Positions 1 through 38,019 of a DNA stretch of 64,000 nt are shown here, in pieces (within the stretch, counting starts at the first letter, position 1; the number at the start of each line of letters is the position of its first letter). The notes under the pieces are model-generated. The model had not been told where the DNA came from and did not search any database. It saw only the letters and a program-made list of their open reading frames with translations. Source of the stretch: Sulfuricella sp. (GTDB lineage Bacteria > Pseudomonadota > Gammaproteobacteria > Burkholderiales > Sulfuricellaceae). The stretch lies in NCBI GenBank assembly GCA_018336195.1, contig JAGXQV010000056.1:1-64000 (forward strand). Direction: 5' to 3'. A program made the translations under genes and the position numbers.

Positions 1-319
1 CCACCATCACCACCACGACGACATCGGCTCGTTCGTCTATCGCAGCAGCGAGCCGTTCATCTACGAGCGCCTGGAAGCGGTTTTCGGCGAACTGATCGGG
101 CGCTTCGGCAAGGATCTGCTGCGCTACAAGGGCATCCTCAACATCCAGGACGATCCGCGCCGCCTGATTTTCCAAGGCGTCCAGGCGGTGGCCGGCGGCA
201 CCCCCGGCGCACCGTGGAACGATGGCGAACCGCGCGAATCGGTGCTGGTGTTCATCGGGCGCAATCTGCCGCGCGAGGTGTTTCACGGCGTGCTGGCGAT
301 GTGTCATCCCGACGCATAA
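1..319 (+). CDS. CobW/YjiA-family GTPase, C-terminal part (5' end outside window)
   Basis: The open frame enters from the left edge in the frame starting at base 2 and ends at TAA 317-319. About 105 residues are visible. They start with a histidine/aspartate run (HHHHHDD), typical of the metal-binding linker of COG0523 proteins, and continue with the compact CobW C-terminal domain (FVYRSSEPF near the start, LRYKGIL and a late VFIGRNL strand). COG0523 GTPases act as metallochaperones or in cofactor metal insertion. The G domain is outside the window, so the metal cannot be inferred, although the His run is often seen in zinc-related members. It reads in the same direction as aroQ, about 185 bases upstream of it. 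Confidence 0.8.
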
Positions 320-503
320 GTTTCCCGCGCGGATCGGCGAATTTCACCAAACGGGAGAAAATTGCCGCGGATTTGTGGGTATTTCTCGCGTTGAGATGGG
401 GCCGGCGCGGGGGAAGCGCCGTGGCAAGCCTGTTCCTGTCTTGATTTGGGGAATTTCCCCGAAAAACTGGACAAATTCCTTGTATTTCGGCAAACTTGCC
501 GCC
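320..503. other. aroQ upstream region with short palindrome
   Basis: This 184-base gap between the CobW-type gene and aroQ contains GGGGAATTTCCCC (448-460), a 6-1-6 inverted repeat, just after a TTGATT hexamer. It is probably the aroQ-acc promoter region. Long frames can be drawn through it, but none has a convincing start or family match. Confidence 0.3.
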
Positions 504-974
504 ATGAATAGCAAACCAACGGGCAAGACGGGTGCGGAAAAGATTCTGGTTCTGCACGGCCCCAACCTGAATTTGCTGGGTTGGCGCGAGCCCACCCATT
601 ACGGCAGCGACACCCTGGAGCAGATCAACCAGCGGCTGGTCGAACAAGCCGCCACCGCCGAGGTGGAACTGGAGACTTTCCAGAGCAATCACGAGGGCGA
701 ACTGGTCACTCGCATCCAGCAAGCCCGCGACGGCAGCGTCCGTTTCATCATCATCAATCCCGCCGCTTACACCCATACCAGCGTGGCCATGCGCGATGCG
801 CTCGCAGCGGTGGGTATCCCTTTCGTCGAGATTCACCTTTCCAATGTTTTCGCACGCGAACCTTTCCGCCAGCATTCGTATTTTTCCGATCTGGCGGTAG
901 GCGTCATCAGCGGCCTGGGTGCCAAGGGCTATGAGTTGGCACTGGATTTCGCGCTGCATTATAAAAAGGACTAA
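504..974 (+). CDS. aroQ: 3-dehydroquinate dehydratase, type II
   Basis: This enzyme dehydrates 3-dehydroquinate to 3-dehydroshikimate in the shikimate pathway (cytosolic). The 156-residue product has the type II signatures in order: GPNLNLLG (residues 19-26), the lid with Arg28 and Tyr33 (REPTHYG), [20 protein letters not shown] with the catalytic histidine, and REPFRQHS near the C-terminus. The frame is open further upstream, but the ATG at 504 gives the usual family length. It is three bases from accB, the common betaproteobacterial aroQ-accB-accC arrangement, which suggests cotranscription. Confidence 0.96.
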
Positions 975-977
975 ACC

Positions 978-1436
978 ATGGATTTACGCAAGATCAAGAA
1001 ACTGATCGATTTGGTAAGTGATTCCGGCATCGCCGAGTTGGAGATCACCGAAGGTGAAGAAAAAGTCCGCATCAACCGTTTCGGCCCGGTTTCCCAACAA
1101 ACCGTGATGATGTCGCCCGGCTATGCGCCGCAGGGCGGCTATGCCCCCCCTCCTGCCGCACCGATGGTTGCGGAAGTCCCCGCCGTGGCGGCTGAGCCGG
1201 AAGGCCATCAGGTCAAGTCGCCGATGGTCGGGACGTTCTACCGCTCCCCGTCGCCGGGCGCCAAATCTTTCGTCGAAGTCGGCCAGAGCGTGAGCGTCGG
1301 CGATACGCTGTGCATTATCGAAGCCATGAAGTTGCTCAACGAGATCGAAGCCGACCAGAGCGGCGTCGTCAAGGCAATCCTGATCGAGAACGGCCAGCCG
1401 GTGGAATACGGCGAGCCTCTGTTCATTATCGGTTGA
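978..1436 (+). CDS. accB: Biotin carboxyl carrier protein of acetyl-CoA carboxylase
   Basis: AccB carries the biotin that AccC carboxylates and from which AccAD transfers carboxylate to acetyl-CoA, the first step of fatty-acid synthesis. The protein has 152 residues, with an N-terminal helical segment, a Pro/Ala-rich linker (about residues 45-75) and a C-terminal biotinyl domain. The biotinylation motif EAMKL places the acceptor at Lys118. It starts four bases after the aroQ stop and is followed by accC, as in most proteobacteria. Confidence 0.97.
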
Positions 1437-1521
1437 TTACCGGGGCAGGTTGGCCGGAGGCAGGGCAGGGGAAATACGCCTGCTCGCGATTTTCCGCCGC
1501 GCGCTCCTTGAAGGGCTAAAT

Positions 1522-2877
1522 ATGTTCGAAAAAATCCTCATCGCCAATCGTGGCGAAATCGCCCTGCGCATTCAGCGGGCTTGCCGCGAACTGGGCATCA
1601 AGACCGTCGCCGTTTATTCGGAAGCCGACCGCGACGCCAAGTACGTCAAGCTGGCCGACGAATCGGTGTGCATCGGCCCGCCGCAATCCGCCCATAGTTA
1701 TTTGCACGTTCCCGCGATCATCAGCGCGGCGGAAGTCACCGACGCCGAGGCGATCCATCCCGGCTACGGTTTTCTTTCGGAAAACGCCGACTTCGCCGAG
1801 CGCGTGGAAAACAGCGGTTTCGTGTTCATCGGTCCGCGCCCTGAAACCATCCGCCTGATGGGCGACAAGGTGTGCGCCAAGGACGCCATGAAGCAATCCG
1901 GCGTGCCGTGCGTGCCGGGTTCCGACGGTGCATTGCCGGAAGACGAAGCGGAAATCCTGCGGATGGGCCGGGAAACCGGCTATCCGGTCATCATCAAGGC
2001 CTCCGGTGGCGGCGGCGGCCGCGGGATGCGGGTGGTGCACACCGAGGCGGCACTGCTTGCCGCAGTCGCCATGACCAAGTCGGAAGCCCAGACCGCTTTC
2101 GGCAATCCCATGGTGTACATGGAAAAATACCTGGAAAACCCGCGCCACATCGAAATCCAGGTACTGGCCGACGAACACGGCAACGCCATTTACCTGGGCG
2201 AGCGCGATTGCTCGATGCAGCGCCGCCACCAGAAAATCCTCGAAGAAGCGCCGGCGCCGCTGCTCGATACCAAGCTCCGCGACAAAATCGGCGAGGCGTG
2301 TGCCGCCGCCTGTCGGCGCATCGGCTACCGGGGCGCCGGCACGTTCGAGTTCCTTTATGAAAGCGACCAGTTCTTTTTCATCGAAATGAATACCCGCGTG
2401 CAGGTCGAACATCCCGTCACCGAACTGATTACCGGCGTCGATATCGTCCAGGAACAGATCCGCATCGCTAACGGCGAAAAGCTCCGTTACAAGCAGAAGG
2501 ACATCCGCTTCACCGGCCACGCCATCGAGTGCCGCATCAATGCCGAAGACCCCTACACCTTCGTACCCTCGCCGGGTCGTATCACCGTTTATCACGTACC
2601 CGGCGGCCCCGGCATCCGCGTTGATTCCCATGCCTACCAGAACTACGTGGTGCCGCAGTATTACGACTCGATGATCGGCAAGCTGATCGCCTACGGCACC
2701 ACTCGCGAACAAGCGATCGCACGCCTCAAGACGGCGCTTTCGGAAATGGTGGTGGAAGGCATCAAGACCAACATCCCGCTGCACGGCGATTTGTTGCGCG
2801 ACGCCGCGTTCCTGCAAGGTGGGTCCAGCATCCACTATCTCGAACAAAAGCTGGCAGCGCAGAAAAAAGCTTCCTGA
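1522..2877 (+). CDS. accC: Biotin carboxylase subunit of acetyl-CoA carboxylase
   Basis: AccC performs ATP-dependent carboxylation of biotin on AccB. The 451-residue product matches the usual length of about 450. It begins [17 protein letters not shown], has the glycine-rich ATP-grasp loop [23 protein letters not shown], the [11 protein letters not shown] block and [16 protein letters not shown] near the active site. The frame is open 72 bases further upstream, but the ATG at 1522 matches the conserved family start. It is the second gene of the accB-accC pair and lies just upstream of prmA. Confidence 0.98.
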
Positions 2878-3772: not shown

Positions 3773-5028
3773 TGGCGCATACCACCACCTGCCCGGCCTG
3801 CGGTACCACGTTCCGCGTGACCGCCGGGCAGTTGCTGGCGAGGCAGGGGGATGTACGGTGCGGGCGTTGCGGCAAGGTTTTCAACGCTCATCAGACGCTG
3901 ACGCTCAACTACCCTCCGATCCCTCCTGAACAACCGCCTGCACACGCCGAGCCAACGTCGGCAATCACTCCACCTGCCATGCTGGTGCCCGAAGCGCCCA
4001 GTCCGCCGCTCGAAGTTGAGCCGATCGGGATCGTCGCTGAATTCGCCCCCCCCGAGCTGCCCATTCCCCTGCCTCCTGGCGAAGTCGCGCCGGCTCCCGA
4101 GAGGGAGGTCGAATTCGAAATCGGTGCACCTGATCAGGATGTCTTGGCGGATAACCCGCCGGCTGACGAACCGCAGTCCGCTCCCGGCCAATTGGTAGTA
4201 GAGGAATTCCTGGTTGAGTACAACGATACCGCGCCAGCGCAAGCGGAAACCCTGACCCGGATTGCCCCGGTCAACGACGAAGCCCCCCCCGCCGAAATCG
4301 AGCCGACGCCCGAGTTCAGCGCGGAACCCGAACCAGTGGCGCCGCTTGCACCGGAAGTTCCGCCCGAATCCGATCCGGAACTCGACCGCTTGGCCGCGCA
4401 ATTACATGCCGAGGCGATTTCCGCATTCACCGCCCCAGCGGAACCGCAGCCCCTTGAGACGGCCAATTCTGCCGCTGCACCGCTTGACCCAGCACCTCCA
4501 CCCGACGTTACGCCCCCCCCGCCCAAGCCGAAGAAACCGCTGCCCCGCTGGGTGATGCCGCTAGGCTCGCTGGCGTTGCTGGCGGCGCTGGTACTGCAAA
4601 GCGCCGTGCATTTCCGCACCGAACTGATCGCCTACAACCCGACCACGCGCCCCCTTTTCGAACAACTATGCGGCGGGTTAGGCTGCCGGGTAGCGCTGCC
4701 CCAGAACCCCGACCTGCTGAGCATCGAAACCTCCTCGCTGGAGGCCGAACCGGGGCGCGCCGGTATCGTGGTGCTGAGTGCCATCCTGCGCAACCGCGCG
4801 GCGTATGCGCAAAGCTATCCGCTCTTCGAACTGACCCTCACCGATTACCAGGACAAGCTGGCCGCACGGCGGATTTTCCAGCCGCAGGAATACTTGCCCA
4901 AGGACACCGACCAAAAAAACGGGATGCCCGCCAACGAGGAAGTCGACGTGAAACTTCACCTCGACCTCGGTGAGCTGCAAGCGGCAGGCTACCGGGTTTA
5001 CCTGTTTTATTCCGCAACCACGAGTTAA
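3772..5028 (+). CDS. Zinc-ribbon, single-pass membrane protein with DUF3426 domain
   Basis: The 418-residue product starts with an MJ0042-type zinc ribbon: CPACG near residue 8 and CGRCG near residue 32. A long Pro/Glu/Ala-rich linker follows (about 45-255), then one hydrophobic helix (about 263-283), then a C-terminal DUF3426 domain presumably in the periplasm. The family is routinely found next to prmA in betaproteobacteria; its function is unknown. The ATG at 3772 overlaps the prmA stop, so translational coupling is likely. The low-complexity linker suggests a tether between a cytoplasmic metal-binding head and a periplasmic domain. Confidence 0.85.
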   Translation: MAHTTTCPACGTTFRVTAGQLLARQGDVRCGRCGKVFNAHQTLTLNYPPIPPEQPPAHAEPTSAITPPAMLVPEAPSPPLEVEPIGIVAEFAPPELPIPLPPGEVAPAPEREVEFEIGAPDQDVLADNPPADEPQSAPGQLVVEEFLVEYNDTAPAQAETLTRIAPVNDEAPPAEIEPTPEFSAEPEPVAPLAPEVPPESDPELDRLAAQLHAEAISAFTAPAEPQPLETANSAAAPLDPAPPPDVTPPPPKPKKPLPRWVMPLGSLALLAALVLQSAVHFRTELIAYNPTTRPLFEQLCGGLGCRVALPQNPDLLSIETSSLEAEPGRAGIVVLSAILRNRAAYAQSYPLFELTLTDYQDKLAARRIFQPQEYLPKDTDQKNGMPANEEVDVKLHLDLGELQAAGYRVYLFYSATTS

Positions 5029-5032
5029 CACC

Positions 5033-5422
5033 ATGAATTTACCCAATGACCTCAAATACACCGCCACTCACGAATGGGCCAAAGCGGAAGCCGATGGGAC
5101 GGTTTCCTGCGGGATTACCCATTTCGGCCAAGAACAGCTCGGCGACATGGTTTACGTCGGCGCCCCGGAAATCGGTCGACAGGTCCAAACCGGAGACGCC
5201 TGTGGAGTAGTCGAGTCGGTCAAGGCGGCCTCCGACCTCTATGCACCGCTGAGCGGCGAAGTGACGGCAGTCAACGACGAACTGGCGAATGCACCGGAAG
5301 CCGTCAACCAGGACGCTTATGCGGCGTGGATTTTTCGCATCCGTCCCATCGCCGCCCCCGCCGATCTTTCCGCGCTGCTCGACGCAACGGACTACCGGAA
5401 ACTCGTCGACAGCGCCGCCTGA
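5033..5422 (+). CDS. gcvH: Glycine cleavage system H-like lipoyl protein
   Basis: The 129-residue product is a lipoyl-domain protein of GcvH type. The motif GVVESVKAASDLYAP places the lipoyl-accepting lysine at residue 64, and the length is standard. H protein shuttles the aminomethyl group between P and T proteins in glycine cleavage. No gcvP or gcvT lies nearby, so its partners are elsewhere or it serves another lipoate-dependent process, such as octanoyl relay in lipoate assembly. Sulfur oxidisers have GcvH-like lipoate-binding proteins beside hdr genes, but no hdr genes are present here. It starts four bases after the zinc-ribbon gene. Confidence 0.88.
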   Translation: MNLPNDLKYTATHEWAKAEADGTVSCGITHFGQEQLGDMVYVGAPEIGRQVQTGDACGVVESVKAASDLYAPLSGEVTAVNDELANAPEAVNQDAYAAWIFRIRPIAAPADLSALLDATDYRKLVDSAA

Positions 5423-32993: not shown

Positions 32994-33280
32994 AACTGCT
33001 TCCTCCGGGTCGATTGGGTGTCATCTCGATTCGAGACGCCATCAAGTCAACGTAACATCTTACCCTTGCTCAGCCTGCCGAGCAGCAAAACCTATCACAA
33101 TTCCAACAAAAGTCGGCGCACATTCTGCGCGGTTTACGTAGTGCCGCAAGGCGACTCATATTCACAATGAATAGAATTATTCACAAAAAATAATTCCCAG
33201 ATTAGACGATTAACTGATTTTATAGGGAAATTAGCCATGTTATGATTTTCCTCAATTAATCTGGAGATGCAAGACCTTTC
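32994..33280. promoter_or_regulatory. AT-rich divergent promoter region
   Basis: This 287-base region separates the FapA-like and HD-GYP genes. It includes a perfect inverted repeat GAATTATT (33174-33181)/AATAATTC (33189-33196) in an AT-rich tract that probably holds the promoter for the HD-GYP gene. No gene is seen. Confidence 0.4.
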
Positions 33281-34396
33281 ATGTACGATCATCAGGACGA
33301 ATTTTCCGTGCTCAACAGCGGGCTGCCCTTGCCTGACAAAATCCGCTCGGTTCATCACCTGTTGAAGCAGCGTTTTCCGTTTCTCGACCGTATCGCGGTG
33401 GCGGTTTACGATGCCAAGACCGATTTACTCAAGACCTACGTGCACAGCAGCGGCGAAGATCAGCCTCTGACCCTCCATGACGCGGTGCTGAGCGATTCCG
33501 GCTCCCTCCAGGAAATTCTCAAAAAAGGCCGGCCCCGTGTTCTCAATGACCTCGACGAGTTCTACGGCACTAGTGCGCGCATCACCTCGGTCCGGTACGG
33601 CGCCAGCTATACCTTGCCGATGTACCTCAATGACGTGTTTTTCGGTTTCCTGTTTTTCAATTCCTACCAGAAGAAGGTCTTCGACGATACGTCCCTACAT
33701 TATCTGGACATGCTCGGTCATTTGCTGTCGCTTCTGGTGATTCATGAGTTGTCGCATACCCGTACCCTGCTGGCAACCGTGCGTACCGCCACCGACATGG
33801 CCCAGCACCGCGACTTCGAAACCGGCGCCCATCTCGACCGGATGGCCAATTACGCGCGCCTGGTCGCTCGCGAGGTGGCACCCAAGTTCAAATTGAGCGA
33901 CGAAATCGTCGAGCATATTTTCCTTTTCTCGCCACTCCACGACATCGGCAAGATCGGCATCCCCGACACCATCCTGCTCAAGCCGGCCAAGCTGACCGAT
34001 GCCGAATTCGAAATGATGAAAACCCACGCCACCAAAGGCACCGAAATCATCGACCGGATGCTGGAGAATTTCGGGCTGACCAGCCTGCGCCACGTCGACG
34101 TGCTGCGCAACATCGCGCTCTATCACCACGAAGCGCTCAACGGCAGCGGCTATCCTTACGGACTGGTGGGAGAGGGCATCCCGGTGGAGGCCAAGATCGT
34201 CGCGGTCGCCGACGTGTTCGATGCGTTGACCAGTGCTCGCCCCTACAAGGAGGCGTGGAGTAATCAGCGGGCATTCGAACTGTTGCTCAATTTGGCGGGG
34301 GAAAAATTCGACCCGGATTGCGTGGCCGCACTGATCTCCTGCCGTGAGCAGATCGAGGCCATCCAGCGGCGTTTCCACGAAGACGAGATGGGTTAG
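33281..34396 (+). CDS. GAF-like sensor with HD-GYP phosphodiesterase domain
   Basis: The 371-residue product has an N-terminal GAF-like domain (about 15-160) and an HD-GYP domain (about 165-355), with HDIGKIGIPD supplying the metal-binding HD and HHEALNGSGYP the GYP signature. HD-GYP enzymes hydrolyse cyclic di-GMP to GMP. All visible metal-ligand positions are kept, so it is probably active. It has no membrane segment or receiver domain, so it should be a cytosolic sensor of a small ligand. It is divergent from the FapA-like gene. Confidence 0.9.
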   Translation: MYDHQDEFSVLNSGLPLPDKIRSVHHLLKQRFPFLDRIAVAVYDAKTDLLKTYVHSSGEDQPLTLHDAVLSDSGSLQEILKKGRPRVLNDLDEFYGTSARITSVRYGASYTLPMYLNDVFFGFLFFNSYQKKVFDDTSLHYLDMLGHLLSLLVIHELSHTRTLLATVRTATDMAQHRDFETGAHLDRMANYARLVAREVAPKFKLSDEIVEHIFLFSPLHDIGKIGIPDTILLKPAKLTDAEFEMMKTHATKGTEIIDRMLENFGLTSLRHVDVLRNIALYHHEALNGSGYPYGLVGEGIPVEAKIVAVADVFDALTSARPYKEAWSNQRAFELLLNLAGEKFDPDCVAALISCREQIEAIQRRFHEDEMG

Positions 34397-34431
34397 GTGT
34401 CCCGCATCCAACAGCGACCATGACTGTTTTG

Positions 34432-35784
34432 TCAGGTTATTCTGCGGCTGGATTCCCGGTTTTTCTTGATTTTGCGGCTTTCAAAAAATTTCAAGCCCAT
34501 AAATGTCAGCCAGCCTATCGTTATCAATCCAACGACAAAGCTGCCATAAGCGTAGGGCCACGGAATTCCTTGCGTCATCATCGAGAATTCGGACATTCCG
34601 CCAATCCCGGCTAGCACGTTCAAAGGCATAAACACGACGCTAATTACGGTTAACCGTTTGATGTCCTTGTTCTGATTGATGTTGATGGAACTGTCGGTGG
34701 CATCCATCAAGAAATTGATCTTGTTGAACAAAAATGCCGTATGCCCATCCAGCGATTCAATGTCGCGCAGAATTTCGCGCACATCCTCATGTTGGGCATC
34801 CGACAGAAATTTACCGCGCATCAAAAAGGACAAAGCGCGTCGGGTGTCGAGGACATTCCGGCGAATTCTTCCGTTGAGATCCTCGGCCTCTGCAATTGCA
34901 GCAAGAATCTTCGCCGCTTCCTCGTCCGTGATATGGGAACTCAACACCAGCTTGCCGACCTCTTCCAGCTTGGCATACACGTCCTCCAGGGCATTCGCGG
35001 AGTACTCCACGTCGGCGGCATAGAGATCGAGCAATACATCCTTGGCTTCCGTCACGTATCCGGTGTGCGCCCTGGCGCGTAAACGCTGCAGGCGAAACAC
35101 CGGCAATTCCTCGCTCCGCACCGAGAACAGGGTGCCCTTGTAGATAACAAATGCCACCGCCACGTTGCGTGATTCGTCTTCCCGATCAAGGAGGAAATCG
35201 GAATGCAGATGCACTTCCCCGTTTTCTTCCACATAAAAACGGGCGCTGGTTTCCAGATCTGTCAGTTCCTTGGGGTTGGGCAATTCCACGCCAAATATCT
35301 CGCGCGCCCAAACCAGTTGCTCGTCATCGGGGGTTACCAAGTCGACCCAGATGGGCAGCGCCAAGGCAAGGTCTTGACGAGTTTCCACGGGAATTTGCCG
35401 CAAGCGCCCTTCGTGAAGGTCAAATACCCGGATCATCATGCTTTGGCTGCGTGACTTATGTTCGGAAACCAGTTCTACCCTCACCGAGTCCGAAATTTCG
35501 AGCAGAATTTCGTCCTTCTGATCGTCACGGACCAGTGGCCAGGCGATCTTTTGGTCATCCGGAGATAACGTTTCAAGAATGCGCGCAACCGTTTGGGGGG
35601 AGAGTTGGCTCAACAACCTCTGTAATTCAACTAGATTTTGCTTGTGAACCAGGGATTCGATCAGGTCGTGCTTGGGCATATCCTGCTTGTGTACCAAGCC
35701 TTCCACCAGTTTGTGCTTGTTGAGCAGGGTGATGACTTGTTGCAGGTTATCCTGCACGCTTTCCGGCTGTTTTGCTTCAGTCAT
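34432..35784 (-). CDS. MgtE N-domain fused to CorA-like divalent-cation transporter
   Basis: The 450-residue product has an N-terminal MgtE_N-like superhelical domain (about 20-120, with LSQLSPQTVARILETLSPDD). A CorA cytoplasmic domain follows (about 130-385), then two C-terminal membrane helices (about 388-408 and 420-440). The canonical CorA signature GMN at the pore mouth is GMS here (AGIGGMSEFSM). The far N-terminus contains a near repeat: LVEGLVHKQ then LIESLVHKQ. CorA forms pentameric Mg2+/Co2+ channels gated by cytosolic Mg2+. The added MgtE_N domain suggests a second Mg2+ sensor. The upstream leader is highly structured. Confidence 0.85.
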   Translation of the reverse strand: MTEAKQPESVQDNLQQVITLLNKHKLVEGLVHKQDMPKHDLIESLVHKQNLVELQRLLSQLSPQTVARILETLSPDDQKIAWPLVRDDQKDEILLEISDSVRVELVSEHKSRSQSMMIRVFDLHEGRLRQIPVETRQDLALALPIWVDLVTPDDEQLVWAREIFGVELPNPKELTDLETSARFYVEENGEVHLHSDFLLDREDESRNVAVAFVIYKGTLFSVRSEELPVFRLQRLRARAHTGYVTEAKDVLLDLYAADVEYSANALEDVYAKLEEVGKLVLSSHITDEEAAKILAAIAEAEDLNGRIRRNVLDTRRALSFLMRGKFLSDAQHEDVREILRDIESLDGHTAFLFNKINFLMDATDSSININQNKDIKRLTVISVVFMPLNVLAGIGGMSEFSMMTQGIPWPYAYGSFVVGLITIGWLTFMGLKFFESRKIKKNRESSRRIT

Positions 35785-36084
35785 GCGTTTTCTCCCGGCG
35801 GCAAAAAAGAGTTGTCGCGCAAAGTCGCGCGCAACCGCCGCAAATACTTATGACATCAAGAAAGGGAAACCACTGAAGAGTGCCGAGGTATCCGATTCCG
35901 CTAAAACCCAGCGGAATCAAGACATGGCCGAGAAGCCAGGAGAGATCAACCGCTAGGAGGTTACTGTTTTGAGTAACTTACAACTGGGACTGTCCAAAAT
36001 GGCTGCGCCTTGAAATAAGAACGACGGCATTTTACCTGCCGGGGAGAAAGCGCGTCAACGCAAGTTTGGCTTGGGGCGCGCGTT
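35785..36084 (-). promoter_or_regulatory. Structured 5' leader of the MgtE_N-CorA gene
   Basis: There is no gene in 300 bases. Three hairpins lie in the leader direction: GTTACT/AGTAAC (35960-35977), GATTCCGCT/AGCGGAATC (35894-35918, nine perfect pairs with a 7-base loop) and GTTGtCGCG/CGCGCAAC (35811-35835), the last just upstream of the start codon. I could not match it to the M-box, mgtA leader or yybP-ykoY riboswitch classes. Confidence 0.4.
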
Positions 36085-36795
36085 CTAAGGCGCTTGCACC
36101 TGGTTCATGCGGGTCAGGATGATCGGGGATTTTTTCTCCAGCCCGCGGGCGTTGCGGTGCAGGTCGTAATAGCGTGGATTGGGGACCATCGACGCCATCC
36201 GGGCCGCTTGCTCGGCGGCGATTCCTGCGGCGCCTATGCCATAGTAATGGCGTGCCGCCGCTTCGGCGCCGAATACGCCGTTACCCCATTCGATGACGTT
36301 GAGGTAAATCTCCAGGATGCGGCGCTTGCTCAGGGTGTTTTCCAGCATTACCGTGATGATGGCTTCCTCCACCTTGCGTAGCGGATTGCGGCTGCCGGAG
36401 AGGAACAGGTTTTTCGCCAGTTGCTGGCTGATGGTCGAACCGCCGGCGACGATTTTGCCTTTTTTGAGGTTCTTTTCGTAGGCTTTCTGGATGCCGTCCC
36501 AGTCGAACCCCTCATGATCGAGGAACTTGGTGTCTTCCGCTGCGATCAGTGCAAGTTTGAGATTTCTGGAAATATTGGCGTAAGGAACCCACTTCTGCTG
36601 CAACTGGGCATCTGGACGAGTTTCGCGTAACTCGGCAAGGCGCGCATCCATGAACGCCGTGGAGGACGGGTTGTGATCCACCCACCACCAAATCTGCGCG
36701 TATATCCAGCCTTGATAGAGCAGCAATGCCGCCACGGCCAGCAGAATGCCGCGCCCCAGCCAGCGCCACAGGAAATTGCCCTTCTTGGCTTTCAT
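36085..36795 (-). CDS. mtgA: Monofunctional biosynthetic peptidoglycan transglycosylase
   Basis: MtgA polymerises lipid II into glycan strands. The 236-residue product has one N-terminal membrane anchor (about residues 10-30) and a GT51 domain with the catalytic Glu in AAEDTKFLDHEGFD, GGSTISQQLAKNLFL, and the RKVEEAIITVMLE and EIYLNVIEWGNGVFG blocks. No transpeptidase domain follows. It lies downstream of metK, separated by a GC-rich hairpin. Confidence 0.96.
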   Translation of the reverse strand: MKAKKGNFLWRWLGRGILLAVAALLLYQGWIYAQIWWWVDHNPSSTAFMDARLAELRETRPDAQLQQKWVPYANISRNLKLALIAAEDTKFLDHEGFDWDGIQKAYEKNLKKGKIVAGGSTISQQLAKNLFLSGSRNPLRKVEEAIITVMLENTLSKRRILEIYLNVIEWGNGVFGAEAAARHYYGIGAAGIAAEQAARMASMVPNPRYYDLHRNARGLEKKSPIILTRMNQVQAP

Positions 36796-36806
36796 GAAAA
36801 CGACAA

Positions 36807-36835
36807 CGGGGGCGACCGCAAAACGGCTGCCCCCG
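36807..36835 (-). terminator. GC-rich hairpin after metK
   Basis: CGGGGGC (36807-36813) pairs with GCCCCCG (36829-36835), with an inner CCG/CGG extension. On the minus strand it is followed by GTTGTCGTTTT, a weak T-tract. It lies between the metK stop and the mtgA start. Confidence 0.5.
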
Positions 36836-36855
36836 CCGGCTCATGCTCAGAATGA

Positions 36856-38019
36856 TTAAAGACCAGCGTCAGCCTTCAGCGCTGCCGCTTTGTCGGTATT
36901 TTCCCAGGTGAATTCCGGCTCATCGCGGCCAAAATGACCGTAGGCGGCGGTCTTGTGGTAAATCGGACGGAGCAGGTTGAGACTCTGGATGATGGCACGC
37001 GGACGCAGGTCGAAATGGCGCTCGACCAGTTGGGCGATTTTCTCGTCGGCGATCTTGCCGGTGCCGGAGGTGTTGACCATCAGGCTGACCGGCTTGGCGA
37101 CGCCGATGGCGTAAGCGACCTGAACTTCGCACTTGCTCGCCAGGCCGGCGGCAACGATGTTCTTCGCGACGTGACGGCAGGCGTAAGCGGCGGAACGGTC
37201 CACCTTGGACGGATCCTTGCCGGAAAAGGCTCCGCCGCCGTGGTGCGCGGCACCACCGTAGGTGTCGACGATGATCTTGCGCCCGGTCAGGCCGCAGTCG
37301 CCCATCGGTCCGCCCACTACGAAACGGCCGGTGGGGTTGATGAGGTAGCGGATGTTGGCGGCTCGCAGGCTTTCCGGGATCACCGGCTTGACCAATTCCT
37401 CAATCACCGCTTCGGAGATTTGTGCATGGGACACGTCGGGATGATGCTGGGTGGAAATCACCACGGTATCGACTTCCTTGGGCTTGCCATCGACATAGCG
37501 GATGGTGACCTGCGACTTGGCGTCGGGACGCAGCCAGGGCAGGCGGCCATCCTTGCGCAATTGCGCTTGGCGCTCCATCAGGCGGTGCGAGTAGTAAATC
37601 GGCATCGGCATCAGTTGCGGGGTTTCGTCGCAGGCGTAGCCGAACATCAGACCCTGGTCGCCGGCACCCTGGTCCATTTCTTCCTCGGGGGTGCGGTTGA
37701 CGCCCTGGGCGATGTCGGGAGATTGCTTGTTGAGCGCGGTCAGCACCGCGCAAGTGTAGTAGTCGAACCCGATATCCGAACTGTTGTAGCCGATGCGCTT
37801 GAGGGCGGCACGGGCCACGTCGATGTAGTTGACCGTGGCGGTAGTGGTGATTTCGCCGGAGATAACCACCAGGCCGGTGCTCACCAGGGTTTCGCAGGCG
37901 ACCCGCGCCTTGTGGTCCTGGGTCAGGATGGCGTCGAGCACGGCATCGGAAATTTGGTCGGCGACCTTGTCGGGGTGGCCTTCGGAAACGGATTCGGAGG
38001 TGAAAAGAAATTCGCTCAT
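36856..38019 (-). CDS. metK: S-adenosylmethionine synthetase
   Basis: MetK makes SAM from methionine and ATP. The 387-residue product begins [20 protein letters not shown] and carries [12 protein letters not shown], the P-loop-like [19 protein letters not shown] and the C-terminal [11 protein letters not shown]. The length matches E. coli MetK. No clear SAM or SAH riboswitch fold is visible in the short leader upstream. Confidence 0.98.

Follow-up and report, generated by a model that had tools for sequence, protein, structure and literature searches.

CorA proteins that carry an MgtE-derived N-terminus share a set of linked substitutions at the pore mouth. Judged from the aligned sequences, this fused clade has lost the asparagine of the GMN triad and the outer-loop glutamate, and has gained a deeper asparagine and a glutamate adjacent to the triad. 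The most likely reading is that the protein still works as an Mg2+ importer, with a filter that would no longer use GxN. The finding is larger than first described: the fusion is already known, and with it goes a rebuild of the pore mouth in which all the changes are linked. The GMN asparagine gives the 2-TM-GxN family its name and is treated as indispensable; here, a large natural clade has replaced it. With its defined linked substitutions, and with some streamlined genomes having no other Mg2+ importer that was recognised, the clade offers a natural test of the need for GMN.

Gene and domain organisation

The window (the whole stretch of DNA that was analysed, 64,000 nucleotides) contains the fused gene as an intact open reading frame on the minus strand, starting with an ATG at 35784. 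Its features are as follows.

34432..35784, minus strand: fused MgtE(N)-CorA gene, 450 aa (open reading frame, translation and Pfam)
35791..35796, minus strand: GGGAGA, purine-rich, 6 bases 5' of the ATG, likely ribosome-binding site (read from the sequence)
35449..35784, minus strand: MgtE-derived N-terminus, residues 1-112, six predicted helices (identity to the MgtE L193 and model)
35428..35604, minus strand: Pfam MgtE_N match, residues 61-119, model positions 1-59 of 102 (Pfam)
35683..35709, minus strand: repeat copy 1, LVEGLVHKQ, residues 26-34 (translation)
35638..35664, minus strand: repeat copy 2, LIESLVHKQ, residues 41-49 (translation)
34507..35352, minus strand: CorA domain, residues 145-426 (Pfam)
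34618..34620, minus strand: Asn389 codon, equivalent to the TmCorA Thr305 position (alignment)
34591..34599, minus strand: GMS, residues 396-398, GMN in other CorA (alignment)
34588..34590, minus strand: Glu399 codon, invariant acidic residue directly after GMS (alignment)

The CorA family (PF01544) was matched with an E value of 3.1e-39 (135.5 bits, the cut-off being 27), and 78 of 78 relatives matched it as well; the score for the CorA equivalog TIGR00383 (NCBIfam) was 148.9 bits, below its cut-off of 200.75. The best solved relative was E. coli CorA (PF01544; soluble domain 5n77), which, like the unfused CorA of related betaproteobacteria, has the same cytoplasmic fold and two-TM plan. In the monomer model, helices spanned residues 329-403 and 409-449, with the filter modelled at low confidence (pLDDT of approximately 60).

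Linked substitutions at the pore mouth

In the accessible text of PMC3629940, GMN is called universally conserved, the side chains of Asn314 and the carbonyls of Gly312 form the polar entry, and Thr305 is a polar site within the pore, close to the entrance. The accessible part of PMC11919701 describes the triad asparagine and the glutamate six residues further on as omnipresent and part of the uptake site, and reports reduced growth for the Mrs2 triple mutant G441A;M442A;N443A. The natural triads AMN, GVN and GIN, given in the portion of PMC9948656 that is available, all keep the asparagine, whereas in the fused clade the asparagine itself is replaced and other sites change with it.

The initial annotation had reported GMS in place of GMN, and this was borne out: residues 396-398 were GMS in all 81 aligned sequences. 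A scan of genome contigs yielded 260 relatives, and the GMS triad was present in all of the best 80 of these 260, which were kept, as well as in the window protein; the lone GMN protein in the comparison was L081, the other CorA of the window genome. Across the 81-row alignment, N389, A392, G393, G395, G396, M397, S398 and E399 were invariant, as were the TM1 residues Q371 and N372 in the fused family.

The sequence set was extended with 398 phylum genomes, 300 order genomes, a 369-genome pattern scan and 60 fetched regions, resulting in 102 distinct GMS and 77 distinct GMN proteins, the latter being a sample because GMN-type matches were fetched in part. Asn occupied the TmCorA Thr305 position in 102 of 102 GMS proteins, and Thr was found there in 77 of 77 GMN proteins. 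The residue directly after the triad was Glu in every GMS protein (102/102) and Phe or Tyr in every GMN protein (77/77), and position 311 was Gly in the GMS set, whereas the GMN proteins had Tyr or Trp there. The outer-loop Pro-Glu was present in none of the 102 GMS proteins and in 76 of the 77 GMN proteins. Written as motifs, E. coli CorA and the unfused CorA of related betaproteobacteria have T...YGMN-F..MPE and no N-terminal addition, whereas the fused clade has N...GGMSE and the MgtE-derived N-terminus. The GMS triad, originally singled out as the change at the mouth, is real, but it belongs to a linked set that also includes Asn at 305, Gly at 311, Glu at +1 and loss of Pro-Glu. The refutation proposed with it was a variant that is ordinary in a large CorA subfamily and leaves Mg2+ selectivity unchanged; of this, the first half holds, GMS being commonplace inside its own subfamily. 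Where GxN after TM1 serves as the criterion of the 2-TM-GxN family, GMS was found in 102 of 102 distinct clade sequences.

The rebuilt mouth and the fusion occurred together. An MgtE-like N-terminus was present in 101 of the 102 GMS proteins versus 0 of the 77 GMN proteins, and in the remaining GMS protein (L054) the match starts with query residue 98 at base 1 of the contig, whose end cuts the gene. The pattern scan of 369 genomes gave 10 matches in 9 genomes and no unfused GMS CorA; three of the matches fell in a CorA (the window protein, L142 and L143), all of them fused. In the phylum to which G1024 belongs, two of 297 genomes had a match at E<=1e-40; both matches were GMS and started at model positions 33 and 11.

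An altered triad could also stem from gene decay or from an error in sequencing or annotation, and one copy (G424) was indeed frameshifted into two pieces and was excluded from the GMS count. The same motif is nevertheless carried by 101 further distinct open frames, and the invariance of the new pore mouth argues, at the sequence level, against decay. The invariant GMS across relatives and the 102 distinct sequences refute this explanation, to which we assign practically no probability.

Origin and spread of the fused clade

A tree built from 82 CorA domains placed the fused proteins in one supported group, with unfused CorA of related bacteria as its sister; the single mislabelled row in this tree was L054, which is cut by a contig end. 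The unfused CorA fetched from the same order, which fall in the sister group, were about 48-56% identical to the window protein. In a second tree of 49 rows, built from the sequence preceding the filter only, the fused proteins made up one side of a branch with support of 100/99, recovered in 100% of 200 bootstrap trees. The fused proteins are a single clade even without the pore-mouth columns, and the linkage of substitutions and fusion therefore counts as one evolutionary event, not 102. The hosts of the clade belong to Pseudomonadota and Thermodesulfobacteriota. Spread by plasmids was considered and rejected: none of 72,556 plasmid records had a match covering 80% of the query; 113 records had partial matches, and the ten listed among them aligned only from residue 97 or later, 9 of the 10 being annotated as corA.

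A CorA with an MgtE-like N-terminus is an architecture that is already known: the accessible text of a 2022 review (PMC9276622, citing Knoop 2005) mentions unusually long CorA homologues of this kind in Dechloromonas aromatica and Magnetospirillum. These share the architecture by description only and probably belong to the same clade as the window protein. Within the open-licence literature, which was the scope searched, neither GMS nor the linked sites were found mentioned, and we found no description of a CorA pore mouth rebuilt in this linked way.

The window protein was 83% identical to a Gallionellaceae copy (L001) and approximately 61% identical to those of genomes from its own family (G408 and G560), and the window genome is listed at 7% contamination. 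The high identity to the Gallionellaceae copy may reflect either horizontal transfer or misbinning.

The MgtE-derived N-terminus and its short repeat

The joining of CorA to an MgtE-derived N-terminus, as first annotated, was confirmed. Residues 1-112 of the window protein were 56% identical to the start of L193, a genuine MgtE with MgtE, MgtE_N and CBS domains. The Pfam MgtE_N match itself (E 4.5e-5) scored 24.4 bits, just under the cut-off of 25.9. It is not a chance match, because 56 of 78 family members match MgtE_N at E<=1e-3 and because of the identity to L193. Comparison with MgtE (PF03448 + CBS + PF01769) places the homology in the first ~112 residues, at up to 56% identity; unlike MgtE, the window protein has neither CBS domains nor the MgtE membrane domain in Pfam searches. 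The initial annotation had also called this part a sensor domain. The MgtE homology stands, but the label is too strong, since the match stops at 59 of the 102 model positions and no CBS domain was found; an MgtE-type Mg2+ sensor function of the N-terminus is thus doubtful from its sequence.

A model of the 112-residue N-terminus was all helical, with a mean pLDDT of 82. A fold search with it placed the cytoplasmic domains of MgtE, along with structures of the flagellar C-ring, among the top matches, none at E<=0.001, and by sequence alone the comparison with solved structures was not significant (best E 0.79).

The short internal duplication noted earlier (LVEGLVHKQ/LIESLVHKQ) is present, with 7 of 9 residues identical. 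L193 also has it (LVEDLVHKQ...LVQTLVHRQ), and the repeat was therefore inherited with the MgtE leader. In 29 of the 78 relatives, no identities were found between the repeat stretches, mostly because the first stretch was missing, and 29 were gapped at its start. The repeat is thus an inherited element of variable copy number.

The fused corA has an mgtE gene as its head-to-head neighbour in five loci (L065, L073, L075, L119 and L125). L181 (G640) shows a similar arrangement, in which an unfused GMN corA faces, head to head, a gene that has this MgtE-like N-terminus. Donation of the N-terminus by the mgtE that is adjacent today was considered and rejected, as distant MgtEs were nearer: the N-terminus of L073, for example, was 36% identical to its own neighbouring MgtE versus 54% to L193. 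In a tree of the N-termini, the fused and MgtE copies lay on opposite sides of one branch, each as one group.

Mg2+ transporters in genomes with the fused gene

We searched 57 genomes with the fused gene, among which G497 and G1025, and likewise G568 and G1030, look like the same genomes given their identical coordinates. The fused protein was the single CorA match in 18 of the 57, and no MgtE exceeded the cut-off in 15 of these 18. An MgtA-type ATPase above the cut-off was found in 9 of the 15 and was absent from six (G626, G598, G535, G550, G552 and G983), none of which had an Nramp protein above the cut-off. In these six genomes the fused protein is the only recognised importer. G626, G598 and G535 each consist of a single contig of 1.3 Mb, are 99% complete and had no MgtA-type match of any score; G550, G552 and G983 are drafts, with G552 being 82% complete. 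CNNM/CorB-C proteins were present in six of the six genomes tested, five of which were among the six sole-importer genomes. The accessible text of PMC9276622 treats CNNM proteins chiefly as efflux proteins, although it refers as well to work in which CorB transported Mg2+ in liposomes. The simplest reading of this co-occurrence, from gene content, is that the fused GMS protein would import Mg2+.

The same survey also counts against Mg2+ import. In most of the 57 genomes the fused gene is accompanied by another CorA or by an MgtE, and the window genome is one of them, with L081 (GMN) as its second CorA and no match to the MgtE membrane domain (PF01769). The fused protein may accordingly be a paralogue with another job, namely a channel whose mouth was remade, after the fusion, for another ion (e.g., Fe2+, Mn2+, Co2+, Zn2+ or a monovalent ion), leaving Mg2+ to the second CorA or MgtE. 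Such a change of substrate would be in keeping with the GVN and GIN forms, which the available part of PMC9948656 links to other divalent ions, and with hosts that include Gallionella, Methylobacter and Desulfuromonadaceae. It is at odds with the six genomes in which no other importer was recognised, with the lack of any recurring metal-specific neighbour family around 80 loci and the window locus, and with the lack of a riboswitch at the window locus or 20 other loci. On balance, we regard it as rather unlikely.

The fused protein might also be a non-conducting, regulatory subunit that joins and modulates a canonical CorA pentamer. Both the filter asparagine and the outer glutamate, omnipresent according to the accessible text of PMC11919701, are lost, and an extra cytoplasmic piece is present, which speaks for such a role. 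Against it, the fused protein is the only CorA match in the 18 genomes described above, and the new mouth is itself invariant. A regulatory subunit seems improbable.

Proposed mechanism

With moderate confidence, and reasoning from sequence, we favour a CorA-type channel, presumably pentameric, that would import Mg2+, and probably other divalent ions, through the rebuilt mouth. A change at the mouth need not end Mg2+ transport, because all three CorA-family proteins tested in PMC6972854, as far as its accessible text goes, move Mg2+, Co2+, Ni2+ and Zn2+. Counting against this reading, besides the second CorA or MgtE of most genomes, are the universal conservation ascribed to GMN in PMC3629940, the reduced growth of the Mrs2 triple mutant (PMC11919701), the CNNM/CorB-C proteins in the genomes tested for them, and the low confidence of the monomer model at the filter. 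The new asparagine and glutamate may be functional replacements for the lost residues. Glu399, beside the filter, would take over ion capture from the lost glutamate of the outer Pro-Glu, while the carbonyls of Gly396 and the hydroxyls of Ser398 would form an upper ring that is wider and binds less strongly. The amide ring that once came from the GMN asparagine would be provided by Asn389, which lies nine residues deeper, at the level of Thr305. The MgtE-derived N-terminus would be a cytoplasmic helical add-on, probably tuning gating or assembly, and not an MgtE-type Mg2+ sensor.

More tentatively, we suggest that the filter as a whole may have been relocated. The asparagine ring would have shifted into the pore by nine residues (Thr305 to Asn), and the acidic capture ring, formerly six residues beyond the triad, would have come to lie directly beside it. 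Mg2+ selection would have become independent of GxN, and the rebuild would be tied to the gain of the first part of the MgtE cytoplasmic arm.

Neighbouring genes

In the window, a transglycosylase gene lies upstream of the fused corA on the same strand, and a gene for an HD-domain protein with a weak GAF match lies downstream on the opposite strand. Rfam searches gave no match in the window at 33000-37500 at E<=1, and no riboswitch above the gathering score at 20 of the 80 relative loci. Across the 80 loci and the window, the commonest neighbour was a gene for a phosphate-binding protein, PstS-like. It follows the fused corA downstream, on its strand, in 17 loci (including L012, L013, L015, L017, L018, L019, L022 and L026), and a gene for a PstC/PstA-like permease does likewise in 15. 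We take these phosphate-protein neighbours to be Pst components; the copy in L019 was PBP_like_2 by domain match, and the other copies were assigned by clustering. Their presence may hint at a link between the uptake of Mg2+ and of phosphate. On contig C134 of G630, an MgtA-type ATPase gene (2-1924, plus strand) and a fused corA (4071-5372, minus strand) occur together.
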